Below, piece by piece: positions 7,205 through 19,419 of a DNA stretch of 32,988 nt. This stretch comes from Acidimicrobiia bacterium (lineage in GTDB: Bacteria > Actinomycetota > Acidimicrobiia > Spongiisociales > UBA5794). Under the pieces are notes generated by a model. That model did no database searches and was not told the origin of the DNA. It saw only the letters and a program-made list of their open reading frames with translations. Each line of letters opens with the position of its first letter. The stretch's first letter is position 1. The DNA lies in assembly GCA_030066755.1 (NCBI GenBank), contig JASJAX010000026.1, positions 1 to 32,988 on the forward strand, read 5' to 3'. Both the position numbers and the translations under genes were made by a program.

Positions 7205-7582
7205 TCACGGCGCAGTCGGCTGATACGTGCCAACAGCCCAGGTATTGCCCTCCGGATCGCGCACGGCGTACTCCCGCGAGCCGTAGTCCTGGTCGGTGAT
7301 GGGCATCGTCACGTCGGCCCCCGCTTCGACGGCAACGGCGTAATGCTCGTCGACATCGGGGCGGGCGAGGTAGACCGTCTGCGTGCCGGGCGGCGGCTGC
7401 GGAGTGGAACCCAGCATGATCAGATCCTCACCGAACACCAGTTGTGCGTGCTGGACGGTGCCGTCGTCGGCCAGGTGCATCTCGTGCTCGACGAACCCGA
7501 GCGTCTGCGTCAGCCACTCGATCGCGGCGAGGGCATCGACGTAGCGGAGGGTGACGTACACGTGTTGGCGGCGATCAGTCAT
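7205..7582 (-). CDS. VOC-superfamily (glyoxalase/bleomycin resistance-like) protein
   Basis: YVTLRYVDALAAIEWLTQTLGF..; DYGSREYAVRDPEGNTWAVGTY; ATG overlaps the stop of the helicase gene. Confidence 0.9.
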   Translation of the reverse strand: MTDRRQHVYVTLRYVDALAAIEWLTQTLGFVEHEMHLADDGTVQHAQLVFGEDLIMLGSTPQPPPGTQTVYLARPDVDEHYAVAVEAGADVTMPITDQDYGSREYAVRDPEGNTWAVGTYQPTAP

Positions 7583-10500
7583 CGCTGGGTTCCTTCCTTG
7601 GGGTTTGGGGCACTGGGCCCGATGCTTCCTCCAGGTAGGCCGTGCCGGCCTCGCAGAATCTGACGAAGTCGCAGTGGTTGCAGGCCGCGCTCGGGGTCGG
7701 GTCGAAGGTTTCTGAGGTCATGGCGTCAACGAGTTCGTGCAGCGCCGCCCGAGCATCGGCGAGCCAGTCATCCGTGACCGAGACCGTCACCTCCTCGGCG
7801 GTCCCGGTTCCCAAGTAGACAAACGTGACGTCCATGGCATCGGGCGCGTCCGTGCTCACCGCGCCGTCTGCGGCGGCAACTGCGTAGGCCTGGAGCTGCA
7901 CGATTGCGGCGGGATCGTTGCGGCGGCGTCCGCTCTTGAAGTCGACGATTTCCCAATGTCCGGGACGGGATTCGTAGACGGCATCGATCCGGCCCCGAAT
8001 CCGGGCGTCGTCGACACGGAGATCGATCGGCGTTTCAACGAAGCGAGGCCGCGCGTCGGCAAAGCGCGAAGCGCGAAACGCCTCGAGAGCGTTCCCGATC
8101 GGCGCATCTTCGCCGGGGGCTTCGCCGACCGTGTCATACAGTTCGGAGCTGATGTCGTCGAATGCCAGTCGACCCAGGTTGTGGAGCTCGATCTGGCGGT
8201 GGACCTCGACTCCGCGCGCCAACCACTGTGCCGGGCGCCGGGGCAACCGATCGACCTCGCTCCAGTAGAAGCGCTGGGGGCACGACGCCAGCGTGACCAA
8301 GCCGGTGACGGACGTGCCGGGCGTCGACGCCTCAACGACGGTCTCCGGTTCGGCGGGGAGCTCTTCGACCATCATTCGTAGCTGGTCCACGTGCGTATCG
8401 TACGCCTCGCGATGCTCCACCTTCGTGTGGATCCATGCCGGATCGCGCATCATCGAGCGCAGCGCAGACTGCCATCCATCCGGGAACACTGGGTCCGGGG
8501 CGCCGACCGTGTCGTCGAGGATCAACCGTTCCGGCGCGTCACCGGGTTCGTCGAGCCACGATCCGATTGTGACGCCATCGAGTCCTCGTGCGAGCTCGAT
8601 GAGCGGCGAGGGAAGCTGTGGTTCTTTGGTGCCCTGCCAGAACGCACCGCTCAGGTAGCAACGATTCCGGGCCCGAGTCACGGCCACATACGCCGTCCGC
8701 CACTCGGCCGCCTCATGGTGAGCTCGGAGCCGGCTGCGACGCTCGGTCGGCGATCCGTTGAGGTCTGGCAGCGTGTCGGCATCGAGCCGGAGCGAATACG
8801 GGAGGAACCGGGCCGAGTCTTCGGGGTTGTCGAACCGTTGTGATTGTGCCGGGAATGTGCGGTGCATGAGCGCGGGGAGGAATACGACATCCCACTCGAG
8901 ACCTTTGGCACGATGCACGGTCAGCAACGTCACCGCGTCGTCGCCGCCGACCCGGGCGGTGTCGAGTTCGTCGGCGCGCGTCTCGTCGGAGAGCAATTGC
9001 AGATAGCCGAGGAACGCAACCAGTGACGTGCGACCTTCGAGCGGACTCCACTCGCGGGCGAGGTCGAGGAATCGATAGAGGTTCAATCGGGCGGAGAGAC
9101 CGGCAGCCGACTCCATTGACTCGACCTCGGCCCAGGCGTCGATCGTGTCGAGGATGCGTCGGCAGAGTTCGTCGAGCGCGACTCCCTGGGCGATCACCAG
9201 CAGGTCCCGGTACGCCGCCCGGAACTCGACCAGCCGACGAGTCGCTTCGGGACGCAGATCGGTGATTGCTTCGACGTGGTCGATGGCTTCGAGGAGCGGG
9301 ACCGTCCGCTCGTCATGATCTCCGGCCTCAGGACGTTGTGAGCGGAGCCAGCGAGTCAACGGAGCGATGTCGCCCAGACCAAGGCGATATCGGCTGCCGA
9401 GCAGGATGCGCAGCACCGCGGGAGCATCGTCTGGATCGCCCAAGACCCGGAGCCACGCGTGGAGGTCGGCGACTTCCGGAACATCGAGCAGACCGCCGAG
9501 CGAGGCGACCTCGGTGGGGACTCCCACGGCCTCGAGTGCGTCGCGCACCATGGGGATGTGACGGTTCTTGCGGAACAGCACGGCGACGTCACGCCACTCG
9601 ATCCCGTCTTCATCGTGGAGTCGACGGATCTCCTCGGCGATCGACCGGGCCTCCTGGGCGGCGTCGTTGAACCAGGATGCCTCGATGTGCCCCGACTTCG
9701 TCTGCGGAGGCGCGGTCAACGGATCGAACGTGGCAGTTCCGTGGATCTCGGCGCGGACAGCATTGGCGAGGTCGAGCACGGCGGTGCCGGATCGATGGTT
9801 GATCGTGAGCGGCAAGGTGGCGATCGCTGGACCATCCGGTGCCGCAAAGTGGTCGGGGAACCCGGCGAAGTTGGCGAGTGACGCGCCGCGCCATTCGTAG
9901 ATCGTCTGGTCGGCGTCGCCGACGGCAGTGACCGGGAAGCCGTCACCGAAGATGGCGCGGAGCAGTTCTCGCTGTGCCGGCGCCGTGTCTTGGTATTCGT
10001 CGAGGAGAACGGCCCGGTATCGCCCGCGGATCCGAGTGGCGACCGACGGGTGTTCGGTCACGAGACGGTGCGCAAACCTGATGAGGTCTGGGTAGTCGAC
10101 CACGCCGAGCTCGCGCTTTCGTGTGTCGTAGGCGGCAACGATCTCGGCCAGTTCTCGTCGAGCATCCCAAACTGGGCCGGTCTGGAAGGCAGCGAGCCCG
10201 ATGAGCTGCTCCGGGGTTGCGAGGTTGTCGCCGAGTTGACCGGCGAGGGTTGCGACCTCATCGACACGAGCCGGCGGGAAGGTCATGTCGAGGTGCTCGT
10301 ATGCCCGGCCGGGTAGGGCCTCGAGGATGAGCTGACGAACGTACCCGGGCCCGATGACTTCGGTGTCTCGTTCGATGCCCACGAACGCTCCGAACTCCTG
10401 GAGGAGCGAGAAGGCGAAGCCGTGGTACGTCGTGACCTCGACCTCTCGACCCTCGAGGGCGTGTTCCGGCAGGGAACGGCGAAGCCGGTCGGCGAGCTCC

Positions 10501-10688
10501 TCGGCCGCCTTGTTCGTGAACGTGACACCGAGAGCAGCTTCCGGTTCCAGGCCCTCGGTGACGAACTGCACCAGTCGGGCGACGATCGTCGACGTCTTGC
10601 CGGTGCCTGCTCCCGCAGCGATTCGGACCGGGATGAGTCCATGGTCCACAATCGCCCGCTGCTCGGTGGTGAGCGCCCAGTCGGTCAC
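7575..10688 (-). CDS. AdnB-like UvrD-family helicase with C-terminal RecB-like (PD-(D/E)XK, Fe-S) nuclease domain
   Basis: Walker A IAAGAGTGKTSTIVARL; LLDEYQDTAPAQ; TVHRAKGLEWDVVFLP; C-term IRGRIDAVYES..WEIVDFKSG and CX..CNHCDFVRFC. GTG start (10688) overlaps the upstream stop (GTGA). Confidence 0.93.
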   Translation of the reverse strand: MTDWALTTEQRAIVDHGLIPVRIAAGAGTGKTSTIVARLVQFVTEGLEPEAALGVTFTNKAAEELADRLRRSLPEHALEGREVEVTTYHGFAFSLLQEFGAFVGIERDTEVIGPGYVRQLILEALPGRAYEHLDMTFPPARVDEVATLAGQLGDNLATPEQLIGLAAFQTGPVWDARRELAEIVAAYDTRKRELGVVDYPDLIRFAHRLVTEHPSVATRIRGRYRAVLLDEYQDTAPAQRELLRAIFGDGFPVTAVGDADQTIYEWRGASLANFAGFPDHFAAPDGPAIATLPLTINHRSGTAVLDLANAVRAEIHGTATFDPLTAPPQTKSGHIEASWFNDAAQEARSIAEEIRRLHDEDGIEWRDVAVLFRKNRHIPMVRDALEAVGVPTEVASLGGLLDVPEVADLHAWLRVLGDPDDAPAVLRILLGSRYRLGLGDIAPLTRWLRSQRPEAGDHDERTVPLLEAIDHVEAITDLRPEATRRLVEFRAAYRDLLVIAQGVALDELCRRILDTIDAWAEVESMESAAGLSARLNLYRFLDLAREWSPLEGRTSLVAFLGYLQLLSDETRADELDTARVGGDDAVTLLTVHRAKGLEWDVVFLPALMHRTFPAQSQRFDNPEDSARFLPYSLRLDADTLPDLNGSPTERRSRLRAHHEAAEWRTAYVAVTRARNRCYLSGAFWQGTKEPQLPSPLIELARGLDGVTIGSWLDEPGDAPERLILDDTVGAPDPVFPDGWQSALRSMMRDPAWIHTKVEHREAYDTHVDQLRMMVEELPAEPETVVEASTPGTSVTGLVTLASCPQRFYWSEVDRLPRRPAQWLARGVEVHRQIELHNLGRLAFDDISSELYDTVGEAPGEDAPIGNALEAFRASRFADARPRFVETPIDLRVDDARIRGRIDAVYESRPGHWEIVDFKSGRRRNDPAAIVQLQAYAVAAADGAVSTDAPDAMDVTFVYLGTGTAEEVTVSVTDDWLADARAALHELVDAMTSETFDPTPSAACNHCDFVRFCEAGTAYLEEASGPVPQTPRKEPSDD

Positions 10689-13684
10689 GATGTGAAGCCT
10701 TCCTTGCCCTGCGGCCACGCTGGACACAGTTCACGGACTCGGCAGCGATCACACCGATCGTTCGGTGTCGGTTCCCAGTTCTCGGCGGCGATCTTCTCGG
10801 ACACTTCCCGGAGCCGTTCGTGGACGACCTCGAGATTCGTCATGTCGAACGCTCGAGTAGCCAACGACCGCTTCTGGTCCTTGAGCGGGAACCACATCTC
10901 GGCGGCATGCGGCGGGCCGTGGTGCGCCAGCTCGCGATCGGCAGCCAGCGCAAGCACGTAGAAGCCGAGCTGGAGCGACGACTCGACGTCGGCCTTGGTG
11001 GGAGGGTTCTTCGTAGTCTTGTAGTCGACGACCTTGAGGCCGAGCTCGTCCGCTTCGACCCGATCCGCATATCCACGCCAGCGCACCCCGCCGATGTCCA
11101 GAGTCAGGTACCGCTCGAGATCGACGACGGCGCCGCGCGACGGCCACATCGCATAGAGCCGCTGGAGACCGTCGATGCCGCGGCGTCGCCACGCCTCGGC
11201 GTACGGATCGCCGCCGAAGACCCCGGGTTCGAACTCCTGGTCGAGGATCGCGAGGGCCCGATCGAGGTCTCCGCGCGACTCGCCCTGTTGATGGGCCTCG
11301 GCCTCGGTCAGCTCGAGGACTCGGTGAATGAGCGTCCCGAACTCCGCGTAGACGGTGGTTTCGTCGCCCACCCTGAGCCATCGTTCGACGGCGTACCGCC
11401 GTGGGCAAGCGGCGTAGGCCTCGGCCTGGCTGGGAGACATCTGTACGTCGGGCGGAATCAGGCCCGAGTCGGGCCCGCGCGCTCGCACGCCGGCAAAGGC
11501 ATCTGGTGACCGCAGCACGGCGGACGGCGCAGTGAGCACCTTCAGTGCGGCAAGGCGCTCCGGGGCACCGGCACCTGGATCCGTCAATCGACGACGAAGC
11601 TCAGCCTCGGCTTCGAGGGGGGTGACCGGGTGGGTGCGCGGCGCCGGGCGGGTGACCGCTTCGGCCACGGTGGGTGTTCCAGCGACGAGTGCGAGGAAGC
11701 GGCTCGGAATGCCGCGACCTTCCTCGAATCCCGTGGCGGTGGCCGTCCAGACGACACGGCGGCGGGCTCGAGTCATCGCGGTGTAGGCCAGGCGCCGCTC
11801 CTCTTGGAGACGAAACGCCCGGTACTCCGCAGTGCCGGTCGGGACGTGCGGAAGGAGATGGCGGACTCCCAGAAGCGAGTCCCGGGTCCGCAGATCTGGG
11901 AACACGCCCTCAACTGCGTCGGCGATGAAGACCACGTCACACTCGAGCCCCTTCGACTGATGGAGCGTGGTGAGGATCAATCGGTCTTCCTCGGGCGGCC
12001 GGTAGGACAACAGCGGCTGCGCTTCGAAGTCCTCCTGCTCGCTGAGGCGTCGGTAGTCGTCCAGGGTCGCCGCAGGGTTCCGTTCGTTCCACCGACTCAG
12101 GACCTGGGCCAGAGAGGACCAGGCCGCTCGTTCGTCGGCCCGGGCTGGATCTGCGACGATCGCAGCCAGGTCCGGCAGCTCCGACCAAACGTGCCAGAAG
12201 CCGTCCTGGGCGGGTATCGAGTGGGCCCAGGCGGGATCGGCGAGCAGGGCACCGAGTGCAGCGAAGTGTTCGGACTGCGCCAAGACGGCCGGCCAACTCC
12301 CGGGTTCGCTCAAGGCCTCTCGTTCGAGGGATCGAACCACGCCGAGGGGGGCGCGGTAGACGGCCCCGAGGAGGAGCCGGCGCACGGCCCGTGTGGTTTC
12401 GCTCGGCCCGTCGGTACCGGTCGCGGCGACGACCGCATCGAGGAGAAACCGCACCGCGGGATGGTCGGCCAGGCGGCTGTCCGGCGTGTCGTGCGGGACC
12501 GACCGACGTTCGAGTGCTCGCGACAGGTTGCGCAGGAACCGACGTTTGCTGCGGACAAACACGCCGATCGAACGGTACGGGATCCCTTCGTCGAGATGGA
12601 GGCGCACGACCTCGCTGGCGATCCACTCGGCCTCCTCAGTCTCTTGGTTGAACTGGTGGACGTCGACGCGTCCTGCTCCCGGAGCAGGCGTCACCGGTCC
12701 GGCGGCCCCTGGGAGGCCGCCGCCGGTGACCCTGACCGCCGACTCGAGAATCGCCTCAGGCGTGCGGAACGAGGTCGTCAACACCAGGCGTTCGGCCGGT
12801 CCGTGCGTGCCACCGAACTCTGCCGGGAACCGGGCAACGTTCTCGAGGGCGGCACCGCGGAACGAATAGATGGACTGGTAGGGATCGGCTGCGGCTGTGA
12901 GCGAGGCACCCCCGAGGCCGACGGCTCGGAGGAGCCGGGCCTGTGCATGCGTCGTGTCCTGGTACTCGTCGACCAGGACGTGGTTCATGGCGAACGGAGC
13001 GTGCGCTCCGCCAACCTCCTCGAGTGCCCAGACGGCCTCGGCGAGCAACGTGCCGTAGTCGGTGCGGTGCAACTCGCGCAGCGTGGCGTCGTAGCGAGCG
13101 ATGAAGCGGGGGAGGCCTCGCCAGTCGCTGCGAGACGCCGCACGATCCGCGAGCTGCTCACCGTTGAGGAGTTCCTCGCGGGTTCGCAGGATGAAGTCGG
13201 TGACTTCGCGGGCGAACGTCGTCGTCCCCAGAACGCTGCGGAACGCAGGGGACCACCGTTGCGGATCCTCGGTTCGCAGGAGCCGTTGGACGAGCGCTAC
13301 TTGCTCGGGTCCCGTGAGCACCTCCGGAGCCGTCGCCCAGCCACGACGATGGGACAGCAGTTCGAGGACGCGGGCGGCAAAGGCGTGGAACGTTGCGACG
13401 TCGATGTGGCTGACCGAGGCGCCGAGGCCGGCTCGTACGCGATCACGGAGGTCGGCGACGCCTCTCCGCCCGAACGAGAGCAGGAGGATCCCGGTGGGAT
13501 CGACGCCCTCGTGCTCGATGAGGTGGAGCGTTCGGCGCACCAGGAATTCGGTCTTCCCGGTGCCGGGTCCTCCGACGACGATCTGCGCCGGCCCGACGGC
13601 CGCTACTGCGTCGTCCCATGCGTCGGGGTCAACGCGTCGCTCCGCAACCGCCGGTGAAGCGGACTCCATGTCGCCCGTAGCCAT
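10685..13684 (-). CDS. AdnA-like UvrD-family helicase with C-terminal RecB-like Fe-S nuclease domain
   Basis: IVVGGPGTGKTEFLVRR; LVDEYQDTTHAQ; TLHQSKGLECDVVFIADAVEG; C-term WRGYADRVEADELGLKVVDYKTTK and CDRCRVRELC. Confidence 0.92.
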   Translation of the reverse strand: MATGDMESASPAVAERRVDPDAWDDAVAAVGPAQIVVGGPGTGKTEFLVRRTLHLIEHEGVDPTGILLLSFGRRGVADLRDRVRAGLGASVSHIDVATFHAFAARVLELLSHRRGWATAPEVLTGPEQVALVQRLLRTEDPQRWSPAFRSVLGTTTFAREVTDFILRTREELLNGEQLADRAASRSDWRGLPRFIARYDATLRELHRTDYGTLLAEAVWALEEVGGAHAPFAMNHVLVDEYQDTTHAQARLLRAVGLGGASLTAAADPYQSIYSFRGAALENVARFPAEFGGTHGPAERLVLTTSFRTPEAILESAVRVTGGGLPGAAGPVTPAPGAGRVDVHQFNQETEEAEWIASEVVRLHLDEGIPYRSIGVFVRSKRRFLRNLSRALERRSVPHDTPDSRLADHPAVRFLLDAVVAATGTDGPSETTRAVRRLLLGAVYRAPLGVVRSLEREALSEPGSWPAVLAQSEHFAALGALLADPAWAHSIPAQDGFWHVWSELPDLAAIVADPARADERAAWSSLAQVLSRWNERNPAATLDDYRRLSEQEDFEAQPLLSYRPPEEDRLILTTLHQSKGLECDVVFIADAVEGVFPDLRTRDSLLGVRHLLPHVPTGTAEYRAFRLQEERRLAYTAMTRARRRVVWTATATGFEEGRGIPSRFLALVAGTPTVAEAVTRPAPRTHPVTPLEAEAELRRRLTDPGAGAPERLAALKVLTAPSAVLRSPDAFAGVRARGPDSGLIPPDVQMSPSQAEAYAACPRRYAVERWLRVGDETTVYAEFGTLIHRVLELTEAEAHQQGESRGDLDRALAILDQEFEPGVFGGDPYAEAWRRRGIDGLQRLYAMWPSRGAVVDLERYLTLDIGGVRWRGYADRVEADELGLKVVDYKTTKNPPTKADVESSLQLGFYVLALAADRELAHHGPPHAAEMWFPLKDQKRSLATRAFDMTNLEVVHERLREVSEKIAAENWEPTPNDRCDRCRVRELCPAWPQGKEGFTS

Positions 13685-13728: not shown

Positions 13729-14214
13729 TCACAGTCCGAGGTTCGGTTGGTGCCGATCCGCTGCCCCATCGGCATCGATGTGCCAGACGTGGGCGCCGGC
13801 GTCCTCGAGCTTCTGGGCGATCCACGTGGTGCGATGACAGTGCCGAGGATCCAGCTCGGAGCACAACACCACGACTCGCGAGGTTTGGGCGACACCAAGC
13901 AGCTCCTCGATCCCGGCGCGGAAGTGGGAACTCGCCACCACCTTGTCCATGTCTGGTACTCCGTCGGTGAGCAGCTCGGGATCGGTCGGCCGCCCGCCGA
14001 GGTGGTCGCCGAGCCACCGGTAGCCCAAGCCGGCTTCCGCCGCGATGGCTTCGAGCTCGGCCTTGGTGAACTCCGGGGCGTGTCGGGAGTACGGGATCGA
14101 TCGGACATCCACGATCGCCTGGATTCGATGGGGAGCGATCCGTTGTTCGAGCTCGCCGAAGGACTGGTCGCCGTGCCCGATCGTGTAGATCGTCACGTCG
14201 CCGACCGGCGTCAT
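13729..14214 (-). CDS. DUF488 domain-containing protein
   Basis: MTPVGDVTIYTIGHGDQSFGELEQRIAPHRIQAIVDVRSIPYSRHAPEF; VVVLCSELDPRHCHRTT; ATG overlaps the recB-like stop. Confidence 0.9.
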   Translation of the reverse strand: MTPVGDVTIYTIGHGDQSFGELEQRIAPHRIQAIVDVRSIPYSRHAPEFTKAELEAIAAEAGLGYRWLGDHLGGRPTDPELLTDGVPDMDKVVASSHFRAGIEELLGVAQTSRVVVLCSELDPRHCHRTTWIAQKLEDAGAHVWHIDADGAADRHQPNLGL

Positions 14215-15053
14215 CCGGTCTCTCCCCCCGACACATCGGTGAACGCAGGACACCGATCCTGGAACGAGCACCACGAGCACAACCTGCCCGGCCTGGGGGG
14301 GAAGCTTCCCGTCTCCAAGGCTCGCTCGATCGCAGTCCACAACGCGTCGAGTTGCCGCTCCATTGCATCGAGTTGGCGATCTGTGACCGGAATCTCGTAG
14401 ACCGTTGGGCCGTTGAGGTAGATCAGCTTGAGGGCAGCCGGTGTGCGCCCCGTGCGCTGACGGATCAGGAGTCCGTAGATCTTCAAGGCGAAGAAGGCCG
14501 GCAGGGCGTACCGCTCTGGGGGAGCCTTGCCGGTCTTGTAGTCCGTGATGACGAGGCCCTCCGGCCCTTCTTCCATCCGGTCGAGGATGCCTCGGATCGT
14601 CAACCGCCCGATGTCCTCGAGCATGTCGAGTTCACGGTCCAGCGGTTCGAAGGCGGCTGGGTCCTCGATTGCGAAGTAGTTCGCCAGCACCTCGAGGCTC
14701 TCGATACCCCACGCCCGCTCACTCTCCGTGTCATCGAACAGATCGGCATACTCGAGCGGCTTCAGCTCACTCCAGGCAACACGGAAGAGGTCGTAGAGCC
14801 GATCCGGTGTCCGATCTGCTGCCGGATGGTCGAACAACCGCTGGAGTGCCAGGTGAGCCGTCGTACCCCGAGCCTGATGCACTGTTGGTGGGGCCTCGAG
14901 CTTGTCGATCGCTTTGAACTTGAAGAGCTGCGGGCACACCTTGAAGTCGCTTGCCCGGCTGGGGGACAAGGTCTCGAGACGCAGCGGCGTTTCGACAGGA
15001 TCGGCGAGTGGTGGCGCCGAGGCCTCGATCGACGGAATGGTGTCAACGGTCAT
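14211..15053 (-). CDS. stand-alone RecB-family PD-(D/E)XK nuclease with Fe-S cysteines
   Basis: LSPSRASDFKVCPQLFKFKAID; IRGILDRMEEGPEGLVITDYKTGKAP; CSWCSFQDRCPAF; ATG at 15053 preceded by TATGAT -10. Confidence 0.88.
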   Translation of the reverse strand: MTVDTIPSIEASAPPLADPVETPLRLETLSPSRASDFKVCPQLFKFKAIDKLEAPPTVHQARGTTAHLALQRLFDHPAADRTPDRLYDLFRVAWSELKPLEYADLFDDTESERAWGIESLEVLANYFAIEDPAAFEPLDRELDMLEDIGRLTIRGILDRMEEGPEGLVITDYKTGKAPPERYALPAFFALKIYGLLIRQRTGRTPAALKLIYLNGPTVYEIPVTDRQLDAMERQLDALWTAIERALETGSFPPRPGRLCSWCSFQDRCPAFTDVSGGETG

Positions 15054-15146
15054 CGGTTCCCGATCATACGGAACCCGAGTGACGAAAACCACACGCATGT
15101 AGTTTCGGGCCGTTTCGGGCCGAGCAGGGGGACGGCTGGAGCTTTT

Positions 15147-15275
15147 CCCCTCAGACACCCCCTTTGCATCGGCTTCGGCAACGGCGGCGCAAGCCGCTTC
15201 GGACGCGTTGGGCGGGCCTGCCTGCGGTCTCTGCACTCAGTACTCGGTACTCAGTACTGGCCGCCGCAGGCGGCC
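15147..15275. repeat. Composite intergenic repeat, copy A
   Basis: CCCCTCAGACACCCCC (15147-15162), GCAAGCCGCTTCGGACGCGTT (15189-15209), CTCAG-TACTCGG-TACTCAG-TACT (15236-15258), hairpin GGCCGCC-GCA-GGCGGCC (15259-15275). Confidence 0.8.
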
Positions 15276-15286
15276 GAGACCCGCCT

Positions 15287-15361
15287 CGCGAAATCTCTTC
15301 TGGACTCGCGAAAACTAGGGACGAATCTGGGTTGACGCGGCCGTTGTTGGTGTCGTACCTT
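15287..15361 (+). promoter_or_regulatory. Promoter of ncRNA locus 1 with CGCGAAA direct repeats
   Basis: CGCGAAA at 15287 and 15307 (20-bp period), TTGACG 15332-15337, 18-bp spacer, TACCTT 15356-15361; same layout as at 18180-18253. Confidence 0.7.
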
Positions 15362-15367
15362 GCCATT

Positions 15368-16193
15368 CCTCGACGGGGCCTTCGGGCGCCGGCGGGGCCT
15401 GAAGGGGAGGCTTCGGCCGAACCGGAGGGAGTCCTACGGGGAGGCTTCGGCTGAACCGGAGGGCAGCGGCAACGCTTGCGTTGCCGGCCTCGGAAGGGCT
15501 TCGGCCCGGAGGAGGCATGTCCGGAGGACCCGGTTACCGGGCCACCACGGAGACGGCTTCGGCCGCCGACGGGGTGGACACCAAAGGACCGCCCACGACG
15601 GGACCGTTTCGGCGGACCTGGAGCGGGCAAACCGGCCGCAGTCGAAAGGCAGCGGCAGCTCTGGAGAGGGCCTCGGTTCTCGAAGGAGTACCGGAAGGGG
15701 CTTCGGCCCCGGATGGACTGTCCGAGCGAGCTTCGGCTGGCTGCGGACCGGTGCGGCGGCGCACCGAACGTACGACCGGGAAACCGGACGAGCGGGAGGA
15801 AGCCGGCGGACCAACCCCGAAGGGGAGGCTTCGGCCAAACCGGAGGGACGTGGAAACGGCCGAGAGGTCGGGACCACACGCCCGAGGCGGTCTTCTAGGC
15901 GGCCGCAACGGGAACGCCCGCCTCACGGCGGGTACCGCCAACGGGGCCTCGGCTCCGGGAAGCGGATGGCCTGACGGGCCCGGCCCCCTCTGGGGGGCGC
16001 CGACGGTGACTTCGGTTGGCGTCGAGGGAACGAAAGGCCGCCCCGAAAGGGACGGTTTCGGCCGGACCTGACGGGATCGGAGTGGCGACACTTCGAGACC
16101 GCCACGCCGACGGCAGCCGCAAGGCACCGCCGACGGCAGGCAACTGAGAACCCCGAGAGGGCCGAGCTCACGCAAAGCTCCCTCGGGGTTTCT
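15368..16193 (+). ncRNA. Putative large structured non-coding RNA, locus 1 (~825 nt)
   Basis: Promoter and terminator bracket a region with no credible CDS; many C(UUCG)G hairpins (e.g. GGGCTTCGGCCC 15496-15507, CGGCTTCGGCCG 15554-15565, GGGGCTTCGGCCCC 15697-15710) and GNRA hairpins (CCGG-GAAA-CCGG 15776-15787, GCC-GCAA-GGC 16116-16125). Confidence 0.65.
16149..16193 (+). terminator. Terminator-like hairpin of ncRNA locus 1
   Basis: AACCCCGAGAGGG...GCTCCCTCGGGGTTT; nearly the same arms as 18473-18516. Confidence 0.7.
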
Positions 16194-16235
16194 CGCGTCC
16201 GGCGGGGCGCGCGGAATCGACGCTCAACCGGGTCG

Positions 16236-17306
16236 TCACCCGCGATTACGCAAGGCGCGCTGCACTTCGTCGGTTGGATAGACCGCGTGGCGATCTTCGA
16301 AGCGAAGACGCCGATAGAAGTCGTTGATGATCGCGGCGACCGGCGCGTTTCGCCGAACGAGGCCTGTCGCTGATGGCCCGAGGTGTTCTATCCCGTCAGA
16401 ATTGCCGTCGCGTACCTGTCGGATTCGCTCGTCTCGCGTCTGCCAGTCCTGCGCGTCGGTCAAGGTGGAGATGGTCCAGTCGACGAGTCGGGTCAACGCG
16501 TGACATCGGTCGTGCGTCGCGTTGGCTACGACGAATCGCCTTTCCGAGTCGGACAGCTGGAAGCGAGGCGACGACGCGAGGCCGAAGTCAGCGAAGTAGA
16601 CACGGTTTCCGTCGGTGAGCATGTTGCCGAGATGCGCGTCGAAGTGGAGCAACTCCGCCAGTTCCAGCTCGCCGAGCCCCGAGAGTAGGCCGTTCTCCAC
16701 GACCTCAATGGCCGCGTCCGCAGCGTCAACCCCGAGAGCTGCCTGCGCATCGAGCCAGCTAGGCAACGCCGTTGGGATGTGCTCGAAGAACAGAAGCACG
16801 GTCGCCGGGGCGTTGGCCATGGCGTCGAGGCGGTTCGCCACCGCAGGTGCACCGTTCCAGTAGTCGCCGACCTCTGCCACCACCGCGTCGAAGGCTGTTG
16901 ACGCCAGCGGATCCTCCTGGACGCGCCAGTGATACAGGATGGGAAAGGACTCGGCACGGCCATCCAGGACCAGCCGGGTTGCCCTCTCGTTGGCGGCGAC
17001 CTCGCGCCACGCACCGAATCCCGGCGACGCGATCCCGTAGTGACACGCCATCGGGAGATCGAAGAGGTTTGCGGTCGACCGAAGGCCCTGCCGTGTCAGC
17101 TCGGACTGAGTCAGCGGCACACGTTTCACAAACACTGGTACGTCCGCGATCTCCGTCAGTTCCCGGACTCCCCCGATACCAGAACCAAGGGGCTCGGATC
17201 GATCAAGGAGGCTCGCCACCTCGTCATCCGAGAGCCGCTCGAGAACGCCGGACACGGTGTTGTGACGACGGCGGCGAGCCGTGGTCGTGCTATGAGGATC
17301 CGGCAT
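16236..17306 (-). CDS. protein-kinase/aminoglycoside-phosphotransferase-fold protein
   Basis: VPVFVKRVPLT (Lys), HFDAHLGNML catalytic loop, VYFADFGLA metal-binding DFG-like motif. Confidence 0.8.
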   Translation of the reverse strand: MPDPHSTTTARRRRHNTVSGVLERLSDDEVASLLDRSEPLGSGIGGVRELTEIADVPVFVKRVPLTQSELTRQGLRSTANLFDLPMACHYGIASPGFGAWREVAANERATRLVLDGRAESFPILYHWRVQEDPLASTAFDAVVAEVGDYWNGAPAVANRLDAMANAPATVLLFFEHIPTALPSWLDAQAALGVDAADAAIEVVENGLLSGLGELELAELLHFDAHLGNMLTDGNRVYFADFGLASSPRFQLSDSERRFVVANATHDRCHALTRLVDWTISTLTDAQDWQTRDERIRQVRDGNSDGIEHLGPSATGLVRRNAPVAAIINDFYRRLRFEDRHAVYPTDEVQRALRNRG

Positions 17307-17347
17307 CACCGAGATCACGGTACACCGGTCCGTCTGCCGGCCTGCCC

Positions 17348-17378
17348 TTGACTCTCACGTTACGTTAGGGTTTATCGT
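17348..17378 (+). promoter_or_regulatory. MerR-type promoter/operator of the TipA-like regulator
   Basis: TTGACT (17348-17353), 19-bp spacer, TATCGT (17373-17378); dyad CTCACG-TTA-CGTTAG inside the spacer. Confidence 0.65.
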
Positions 17379-17399
17379 CGTGGCGACGGAGGTGGTCCG

Positions 17400-18158
17400 A
17401 TGGCCCACACAGTGAGTGAAGTTGCCCGGTTGGCGGGGGTGAGCGTGCGGACGCTGCATCACTATGACGACGTCGGGTTGCTGTCGCCGAGCTCGCGAAG
17501 CGAGTCCGGATACCGGCTCTATCACCACACCGACCTGGAGCGGCTCCACGAGGTCCTGTTCTTGAGGGAGCTCGGGTTCGCTCTCGACGAGATCCGGCAT
17601 GTGCTGGACGATCCGGGTCACGACCGGTTGGCGTCGTTGCGAGATCAGCGGACGATGATCAACGGGAAGATCGCTCACCTTCGGAGACTCGTCGTATCAC
17701 TGGATGCGGCGATCAACGCACACGAAGAAGGAATCCCCATGAACGAAGACGAGATGTTCGAGGTGTTCGGCGACTTCGATCCGCGCGAGTACGAAGCGGA
17801 GGTAGAAGAACGCTGGTCGGGCGAGCTGCTCGACGAGTCCCGTCGCCGCACCTCGAGCTACACCAAGCAGCAGTGGAAAGCGGCGATGGCCGAGAGTGAA
17901 GCCGTCACGAACGACTTCGCCGCTGCGAAGCGCGCCGGCGACGCGGCGGACAGCGAGGCCGTGATGGCGATTGCCGAGCGACATCGGCTGCAGATCGACC
18001 GATGGTTCTATCCGTGCTCGTATGAGATCCATACCGGCCTTGCCGAGATGTACGTGACCGATGCGCGATTCACGGCTCACTACGAGCAATCGGAGGCAGG
18101 TCTCGCGGCGTACATCCACGATGCCATCAAGGCGAATGCCGCCCGCGCCGGCGGGTGA
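17400..18158 (+). CDS. MerR-family transcriptional regulator with TipAS-like effector domain
   Basis: VSEVARLAGVSVRTLHHYDDVGLLSPSSRSESGYRLY HTH; C-terminal WFYPCSYEIHTGLAEMYVTDARFTAHYE TipAS pattern; SD GGAGGTGG. Confidence 0.93.
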   Translation: MAHTVSEVARLAGVSVRTLHHYDDVGLLSPSSRSESGYRLYHHTDLERLHEVLFLRELGFALDEIRHVLDDPGHDRLASLRDQRTMINGKIAHLRRLVVSLDAAINAHEEGIPMNEDEMFEVFGDFDPREYEAEVEERWSGELLDESRRRTSSYTKQQWKAAMAESEAVTNDFAAAKRAGDAADSEAVMAIAERHRLQIDRWFYPCSYEIHTGLAEMYVTDARFTAHYEQSEAGLAAYIHDAIKANAARAGG

Positions 18159-18179
18159 TCGGGCACGTCGAATGCACGT

Positions 18180-18253
18180 CGCGAAACATCGAGCTGAGAC
18201 GCGAAAACTCTCCACGGATTCCGCTTGACCCTGTCGGTTGCGGCGAATACGTT
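18180..18253 (+). promoter_or_regulatory. Promoter of ncRNA locus 2 with CGCGAAA direct repeats
   Basis: CGCGAAA at 18180 and 18200, TTGACC 18225-18230, 17-bp spacer, TACGTT 18248-18253. Confidence 0.7.
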
Positions 18254-18259
18254 TCATAG

Positions 18260-18516
18260 CGTCGCTGGAACGGGCAACCGGAACGGCGGCGGGCGGCCCG
18301 CAAGGGTCGCAGGCCCGGAAGGGTCGCCCGGCCGCAAGGCTGGGGGACTGGTCTCCTCGGAGATCCCGGAGCCGGGTCTTCGGGCTCGGGTTCGGACCGG
18401 AAGGGCCACCCGAAACGGGCTTCGGCCCGGGTCGGGCGGTCGTCCAGCCGAAAGGCGGGATGGCCCAGGGACAACCCCGAGAGGGCAGCGCTTCGGTGAG
18501 GCTCCCTCGGGGTTTC
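18260..18516 (+). ncRNA. Putative structured non-coding RNA, locus 2 (~255 nt)
   Basis: Serial hairpins: CGG-GCAA-CCG, CCC-GCAA-GGG, CCC-GGAA-GGG, GCC-GCAA-GGC, CCGGGUC-UUCG-GGCUCGG (7 bp), GGGC-UUCG-GCCC, GCC-GAAA-GGC; ends in a terminator. Confidence 0.65.
18473..18516 (+). terminator. Terminator-like hairpin of ncRNA locus 2
   Basis: AACCCCGAGAGGGC...GCTCCCTCGGGGTTTC. Confidence 0.7.
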
Positions 18517-18523
18517 CCGCGTC

Positions 18524-18578
18524 CCGGCGCCTTCGGCGCCGGAGTACTGAGTAGCGAGTATTGAGTAGCGAGAGACCG
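18524..18578. repeat. Composite intergenic repeat, inverted partial copy E
   Basis: Hairpin CCGGCGCC-TTC-GGCGCCGG then GAGTACTGAGTAGCGAGTATTGAGTAGCGAGAGACCG, the reverse complement layout of copy C. Confidence 0.7.
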
Positions 18579-18621: not shown

Positions 18622-18753
18622 CCCCCTCAGACACCCCCCACGGTGGCTCGCTTCGCAACCGACGAGTCAGCGGCGCTTGGGACGCGTTCAACCCGGGTGG
18701 TTGCGGTCTCGGTACTGAGTACTCGGTACTCGGTACTGCGGCCGTAAGGCCGC
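18622..18753. repeat. Composite intergenic repeat, copy B
   Basis: CCCCCTCAGACACCCCCC (18622-18639), GCGCTTGGGACGCGTT (18673-18688), GGTCTCGG-TACTGAG-TACTCGG-TACTCGG-TACT, hairpin GCGGCC-GTAA-GGCCGC (18738-18753). Confidence 0.8.
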
Positions 18754-18795: not shown

Positions 18796-19419
18796 ATGTC
18801 CTATCCCGAGAAGTTCCTGACTGAGGGTGAGCAGGTCGTCACGCAGTTCCGGCCGCATTGGCGACTGCTCGTGATTCCGGTTCTGTGGGTGATTGCGGCG
18901 ATCGCAGCGATCATCCTGGCCTATCAGGTGATCCCCGGTGAGGGAGCCATCGACCTCGTGATCACGCTTGCGGTGATCGTTGCGCTCGTGCCGCTCGCCG
19001 TCGTGCCGTTCGTCAAGTACTGGTTCACGGCGTATGTGTTGACCAACGAGCGGTTGATCACGCGCAGCGGCGTGATCGCCCGCAGCGGCATCGAGATTCC
19101 CCTGGACAACATCACGAACGTGGTGTTCAACCAATCGATCCTCGAGCGCCTCCTCAAATCGGGTGACCTGCTCATCGAGTCGGCGGGGGAGAGCGGCCAG
19201 AGCCGCTTCTCCGACATCCCCGAACCAGAGGCGTTTCAGTCGCTGCTCTACAAGGTCCGAGAGGATCGTGAGGACGCCCACCGTGCGAGGGCGGCCATGC
19301 CGACGCCCGGCGGTGATGCCACGGAACGGCTGGAGCGACTGGCCAGGTTGCACGCCGACGGTGTCATCTCCGACGAGGAATACGAAGAGAAGCGCCGCGA
19401 GCTCCTCGACGAGATCTGA
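18796..19419 (+). CDS. PH (bPH2-like) domain membrane protein with C-terminal SHOCT domain
   Basis: YVLTNERLITRSGVIARSGIEIPLDNITNVVFNQSILERLL; C-term LERLARLHADGVISDEEYEEKRRELLDEI = SHOCT. Confidence 0.9.
   Translation: MSYPEKFLTEGEQVVTQFRPHWRLLVIPVLWVIAAIAAIILAYQVIPGEGAIDLVITLAVIVALVPLAVVPFVKYWFTAYVLTNERLITRSGVIARSGIEIPLDNITNVVFNQSILERLLKSGDLLIESAGESGQSRFSDIPEPEAFQSLLYKVREDREDAHRARAAMPTPGGDATERLERLARLHADGVISDEEYEEKRRELLDEI

Follow-up and report, generated by a model that had tools for sequence, protein, structure and literature searches.

Several kinds of structured or regulatory RNA in bacteria offer points of comparison for the RNAs described here. 6S RNA is a single long hairpin whose large central bubble mimics an open promoter, and the large ornate RNAs (OLE, GOLLD, ROOL, HEARO and raiA) have retained cores of conserved sequence and are represented in Rfam. 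The locus of Ms1 adjoins a HAD-IB hydrolase / oxidoreductase gene (PMC9130861), and in alphaproteobacteria CcnA (PMC8959179) and EcpR1 (PMC4414408) are base-pairing small RNAs (sRNAs) that tune cell-cycle messenger RNAs (mRNAs). In this study, two non-coding units, RNA A and RNA B, were analyzed in a window of 32,988 nucleotides (nt) from an Acidimicrobiia bacterium of the GTDB order Spongiisociales (assembly GCA_030066755.1, contig JASJAX010000026.1, positions 1 to 32,988 of the forward strand; the window is this whole stretch, and positions refer to it). They resemble 6S and Ms1 in being stand-alone, structured, sequence-poor and locus-conserved RNAs of Actinobacteria, CsrB/RsmZ sponges in having many hairpins, elastic length and paired paralogues with common control, the large ornate RNAs in being long and highly structured with no function obvious from sequence, and CcnA and EcpR1 in being placed under cell-cycle control along with dnaA and other genes.

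A reading made from the letters of the window had proposed A and B as members of one undescribed structured-RNA family with matched promoters and terminators. What this sequence-only reading had observed was confirmed, and its interpretation was for the most part supported, as none of the refuting conditions it named that could be computed went against it. Promoter, structure, terminator and locus are conserved, and the promoter carries an element common to replication genes. On this evidence A and B almost certainly represent a real RNA class that is expressed, and would be non-coding transcripts, independent and terminated, that make up a new class of structured RNA in one order of Acidimicrobiia.

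Two structured RNA units and their relatives

RNA A is predicted as a plus-strand transcript of ~827 nt (~15366 to 16192), folding into an array of hairpins mostly capped by GNRA or UUCG tetraloops, and RNA B as a plus-strand transcript of ~257 nt (~18260 to 18516), folding into a well-defined hairpin chain. The loci originally proposed, 15287-16193 and 18180-18516, do contain the promoter-to-terminator frames, the predicted transcripts themselves being limited to the narrower intervals just given. The fold of RNA A contained 21 hairpin loops, 17 of them tetraloops, with a z-score of -4.7 (0 of 20 shuffles as good), and its long homologues covary. For RNA B the z-score was -6.0 (0 of 200 shuffles as good; -2.4 for the antisense strand), and the minimum free energy (MFE) structure was the same as the centroid, with an MFE ensemble frequency of 0.27. 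Within RNA A the hairpin GGGGAGGCUUCGGCCGAACCGGAGGG is present at 15399, 15433 and 15817, with a degenerate copy at 16044, and RNA A of the window is enlarged through duplication of this one hairpin. The 5' hairpin of RNA B reads CGUCGCUG-GAA-CGG[GCAA]CCG-GAA-CGGCGGCG. The tetraloop hairpins noticed on the plus strand were counted at 6 in 15500-16000 and 4 in 18000-18500, compared with ~1 per kb elsewhere.

The terminator hairpin of RNA A, AACCCCGAGAGGG...CUCCCUCGGGGUUUC (16149..16192, plus strand), has a stem that is nearly invariant across the order, and the terminator hairpin of RNA B is at 18473..18516 (plus strand); the two terminators, whose hairpin arms were described earlier as nearly identical, are ~82% identical. 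Both units share the ending AACCCCGAGAGGG...CCCUCGGGGUUUC. The sequence of the lower stem is nearly invariant, with one covarying variant, CCCCAAG...CUUGGGG, in the B RNAs of some genera.

Homologues sharing this promoter and terminator were found throughout the order, and 78 promoter-terminator units, usually two per genome, were collected from its loci, with transcripts of median ~290 nt (range ~90 to 860 nt). Three flawed units were kept, one that looks spurious inside a coding region (L142 at 9893) and two L102 units over-extended past their own terminator; totals for the 78 are not materially changed by them. A DNA search with RNA A as query matched 27 of 60 related genomes, nearly always via the terminator, and in the matched relatives the hits often came in twos or threes, separated by some hundreds to some thousands of bases. 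Genomes without the exact promoter pattern, for example in families f6 and f2, still had dense tetraloop-hairpin RNAs at the same locus.

All 78 units were compared with dinucleotide-shuffled sequences, and they folded far better, as the sequence-only reading would predict (mean z -5.0). GNRA hairpin loops numbered 268 in the sense strand, 19.7 in shuffled sequence and 6 in the antisense strand, and UUCG loops 181, 0.85 and 1, respectively; the density of GNRA/UUCG hairpins was 13.6 per kb in the RNAs, 0.5 in the antisense strand and 0.8 in surrounding DNA. The predicted transcript opens with a tetraloop-capped hairpin in 58 of 78 units (mean of 1.75 in shuffled sequence), a class that includes the 5' hairpin of RNA B. 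The hairpin is built as a stem, a symmetric and often purine-rich loop of 1-4 nt, 2-6 bp and a GNRA or UUCG loop, and its stem sequence differs in almost every genus. Seventy-two percent of adenine residues were unpaired, as in rRNA-like folds. No linear word other than the tetraloop words was enriched over dinucleotide shuffles. A universal hairpin with an internal-loop protein site was considered and rejected, since the purine-rich (tandem GA) internal loops differ in size and register and yield no single module.

Covariation was strong in the group that aligned best, which comprised five long A RNAs of genus g11. For these RNAalifold gave 233 pairs, 72 with two-sided changes. An independent count found 92.9% of cells paired and again 72 two-sided pairs, compared with 32.8 in shuffles and 12-21 when the structure was slid, with a covariation score of 0.350 (0.215 shuffled, at most 0.107 slid). 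Compensatory changes in these A RNAs are above both controls, as expected of a structured RNA.

Known classes were searched for in the window and 10 related loci (143 kb) using all 4227 families of Rfam 15. At the gathering cut-off there were 0 matches, in line with the proposal that no known class is present, and at relaxed E-value thresholds only chance-level matches appeared. ARAGORN found no transfer RNA or transfer-messenger RNA gene in the window, and among the open-access literature results listed, nothing relevant was found on structured RNAs in Acidimicrobiia or on a CGCGAAA promoter element. The large ornate RNAs differ from A and B in that none was matched and in the lengths found here; a phage-borne RNA of the GOLLD/ROOL type is disfavored, as IMG/VR patterns and phage records gave no match and no phage or viral occurrence was found. 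The proposal that A and B form one family was upheld for promoter, style of 5' hairpin, terminator and locus, and failed for the interiors, which are alignable only within groups of A or B RNAs. Because the A and B interiors cannot be aligned with each other, the two RNAs are best regarded as separate types of one kind, either paralogous or convergent.

Promoter frame and replication genes

The exact spacing claimed for the promoter frame was reproduced at both loci. CGCGAAA is at 15287 and at 18180, CGCGAAAACT follows 20 bp later, and TTGAC is present in both frames exactly 25 bp past the second repeat. The double CGCGAAA elements, putative activator sites of direct repeats 20 bp apart, lie at 15287..15316 for RNA A and 18180..18209 for RNA B (plus strand), both matching the order-wide pattern exactly (consensus CGCGAAAactnnnnntgannCGCGAAAAcnAancAgcgnTntgGnTTGac). 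The predicted sigma-70-type promoters, with -10 boxes of the TAnnnT form described earlier, are at 15332..15361 for RNA A (TTGACG, 18 bp, TACCTT; TTG at the fixed offset) and, with the same geometry, at 18225..18253 for RNA B (TTGACC, 17 bp, TACGTT), also on the plus strand. Counted from the first CGCGAAA, the offset of TTG was 45 in 65 of 66 units aligned with 13-nt spacing, and the -10 spacing was 17 or 18.

Allowing up to 3 mismatches, the frame was found 3 times in the 3.8-Mb genome to which the window belongs (two exact, one with 3 mismatches), and a reversed control pattern 0 times. With up to 2 mismatches, 94 of 138 order members had the frame, usually as a pair of sites on a single contig, the reversed control being almost always zero. 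The exact frame was present in 83 of these 138 genomes and in 1 of 257 other Acidimicrobiia, with zero reversed matches in every genome. Named records with the pattern were mostly metagenome-assembled genomes (MAGs) of Acidimicrobiia.

Every additional match to the double element was followed, which revealed a feature that the sequence-only reading had overlooked: genes of DNA replication have the matched promoter too. CGCGAAA-N13/14-CGCGAAA is present upstream of nrdJ (>20 genomes), dnaA (~14), dnaB (3) and ftsK (2), with NrdJ, DnaA, DnaB and FtsK confirmed on representatives using hidden Markov models. In the genome of the window it precedes nrdJ (L206, C50), dnaA (L207, C197) and dnaB (L136, C144; identified from its translation), and relatives with such sites include L191-L205 and L117-L134. 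The offset of the -35 TTG is identical for nrdJ and the RNAs. The 16S rRNA genes examined had no double element upstream, and a stable-RNA promoter of rRNA type was rejected on this ground. Since the element is shared with replication genes and not with the 16S genes examined, the RNAs are very probably under the control of a replication or cell-cycle regulon, and not part of a general growth or stable-RNA set.

The two repeats, centered roughly at -58 and -78, appear to resemble class-I activator sites. A regulator would bind them two helical turns apart, at distances of ~60 and ~80 bp ahead of the start site, and would turn on the RNAs along with dnaA, nrdJ, dnaB and ftsK, and so with chromosome replication, probably by activation rather than repression. 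In several genomes (L208, L131, L212, L218) the element lies directly at the promoter of the gene for a conserved protein of ~190-280 aa, without an NCBIfam match and, for L212, without a Pfam match, which is a candidate regulator or effector of the regulon. In nrdJ leaders (L119, L122, L128 and others), palindromic TAGTTACA/TGTAACTA-like sites resembling NrdR boxes are located 3' of the element, so that two regulators seem stacked there.

The conserved locus and its neighbors

The RNAs occupy a conserved site between adnAB/recB-like nuclease genes on the left and a bPH_2 gene on the right. On the left, two AdnA/AdnB-like UvrD helicase and PDDEXK_1 nuclease genes (7575..13684, minus strand; Pfam and synteny) form the conserved flank, followed by the conserved left neighbor, a gene for a RecB-family PD-(D/E)XK nuclease (14211..15236, minus strand; Pfam PDDEXK_1, E 3e-32, and synteny) that is divergent from RNA A. 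To the right of RNA B lies the conserved gene for a bPH_2 and SHOCT protein (18796..19419, plus strand; Pfam bPH_2, E 1e-18), whose family F1 occurs in 33 loci. In nearly all loci both RNAs are on the same strand with A first; in G015 (L102), RNA B is inverted and convergent with A. The gap between them ranges from 17 bp to ~5 kb (5280 bp) and seems to accommodate accessory genes. In the window it holds a gene for a 360-aa protein without a Pfam match (16236..17318, minus strand), missing between A and B in most relatives, and one for a MerR-TipAS transcription regulator (17400..18158, plus strand; Pfam TipAS, E 1e-36; MerR_1, E 1e-18). In genus g11 (L148:5019-9528) the gap contains genes for a PAP2-domain protein and an LPG_synthase_TM protein (DUF4032 in L149). 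Short repeats of ACTGAGTACT/ACTCGGTACT type flank both RNA genes of the window (15243-15262, 18542-18572 and 18716-18740).

Other arrangements were also seen. Family f4 (L013, L022, L026) has tandem arrays of two or three very short RNA versions of ~150 nt each, and in G019 a short promoter-RNA-terminator unit recurs in identical form at two places unrelated to each other (L124 at C9, L125 at C41), as if dispersed, with N runs inside. A search for the same RNAs in other orders did not find the promoter and gave only one similar RNA, in G142 (L176:2310-2650, minus strand), with GNRA hairpins and a CCCCGAG terminator stem. It lies upstream of, and codirectional with, the same RecB-family nuclease gene, and no close relatives of it were found. 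Because its promoter and orientation differ from those of the order's RNAs, this kind of RNA may predate the order, and its replication-type promoter not; the G142 RNA is a possible ancient relative.

Possible roles of the RNAs

The reading we favor, at slightly short of an even chance, is that A and B are replication-regulon RNAs acting in trans as folded RNA-protein particles. Taken on its own, action as folded RNA through proteins, be it as a ribonucleoprotein or as a titrating RNA, is the probable part of this proposal, and a role for the RNAs in replication itself is possible, with the balance leaning against it. The RNAs would be molecules with a rigid fold and would most likely serve as the RNA component of a ribonucleoprotein particle; tetraloops seal their loops, and sequence drifts while base pairing and the hairpins at the 5' and 3' ends are preserved. 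With loops sealed and sequence drifting, antisense action is unlikely. The particle would probably hold or titrate a protein that replication, or repair linked to replication, needs or is limited by.

An alternative in the sense of CsrB/RsmZ is a sponge, its numerous hairpins titrating a single regulator that could be DnaA or the factor binding CGCGAAA, with feedback on the replication regulon; length would vary because only the number of sites matters. The very elastic hairpin number, the growth of RNA A by hairpin-module duplication, the pair of RNAs under one control and the recurrence of symmetric purine internal loops (GA/GA, GAA/GGA) are consistent with it. However, CsrB/RsmZ sponges present a CsrA-type loop motif, whereas here the loops are capped by structural tetraloops and not by a recognition motif such as the GGA of CsrA, no protein-recognition word is repeated in the hairpin loops, where only tetraloop words are enriched, no linear word stands out elsewhere, and the internal loops vary in size and register. 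We regard a sponge as unlikely.

Binding of RNA polymerase by a 6S/Ms1-like RNA was judged decidedly unlikely. In its favor, A and B look like abundant stand-alone RNAs with strong promoters in Actinobacteria, from which 6S RNA is, to our knowledge, missing, and RNA polymerase-binding RNAs of Actinobacteria are diverse (PMC11077062). Against this, MFE and centroid folds of A and B are chains of short tetraloop hairpins in place of one long bubble-bearing rod, there are two RNAs per genome under a replication-regulon promoter, Rfam gave no match to 6S, and the synteny of Ms1 (PMC9130861) is not present, the neighbors here being adnAB/recB-like and bPH_2 genes.

Base-pairing trans-sRNAs that tune cell-cycle mRNAs, as CcnA and EcpR1 do, would fit the co-regulation with dnaA and other cell-cycle genes, but the RNAs leave almost no unpaired seed, their loops are closed by GNRA or UUCG, and primary sequence is not kept between genera, contrary to the demands of pairing with targets, which makes this very unlikely. 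RNA B might otherwise be a cis-acting leader or attenuator of the bPH_2 gene, which it usually precedes in the same direction, and RNA A one of whatever follows it. This is highly improbable, as each unit has its own promoter and terminator, gaps between units run from 17 to 5280 bp, A is often followed by B or by an opposite-strand gene, and the inverted B of G015 also argues against a cis-leader. That the units are not RNA at all, being GC-rich extragenic DNA hairpins or a mobile repeat as the two short units of G019 might suggest, is scarcely credible given the strand asymmetry of the tetraloops (GNRA, 268 sense and 6 antisense), the fixed geometry of promoter and terminator, the single conserved locus and the compensatory changes, G-U included.

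Several points weigh against replication-regulon RNAs acting in particles. Transcription and a protein partner are both points that we infer; lengths of ~90-860 nt and interiors that cannot be aligned between families are unusual for a defined particle; and the GC-rich host genomes are nearly all uncultured MAGs. In addition, a -35 TTG at the set distance is often absent from the dnaA and ftsK promoters, and the mode of action of the regulator may therefore differ at these genes. A more specific form of the particle proposal, which we consider doubtful, is an RNA-machine pair for the chromosome cycle: an S-phase-like regulon (dnaA, dnaB, nrdJ, ftsK) with a ribonucleoprotein that would be a requirement for, or a limit on, the initiation of replication or the repair linked to it. 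It would be a bacterial analogue of eukaryotic Y RNAs, in role and not by homology, a comparison to which the same doubt applies.

In an order known almost only from metagenomes, two large folded RNAs are maintained with free drift of sequence but with conservation of fold, locus and promoter. The promoters reveal an undescribed, order-wide replication regulon, marked by CGCGAAA direct repeats, whose regulator can now be sought. We know of no bacterial structured RNA class that belongs to a replication regulon, and a role for RNA in the bacterial chromosome cycle therefore becomes directly testable.

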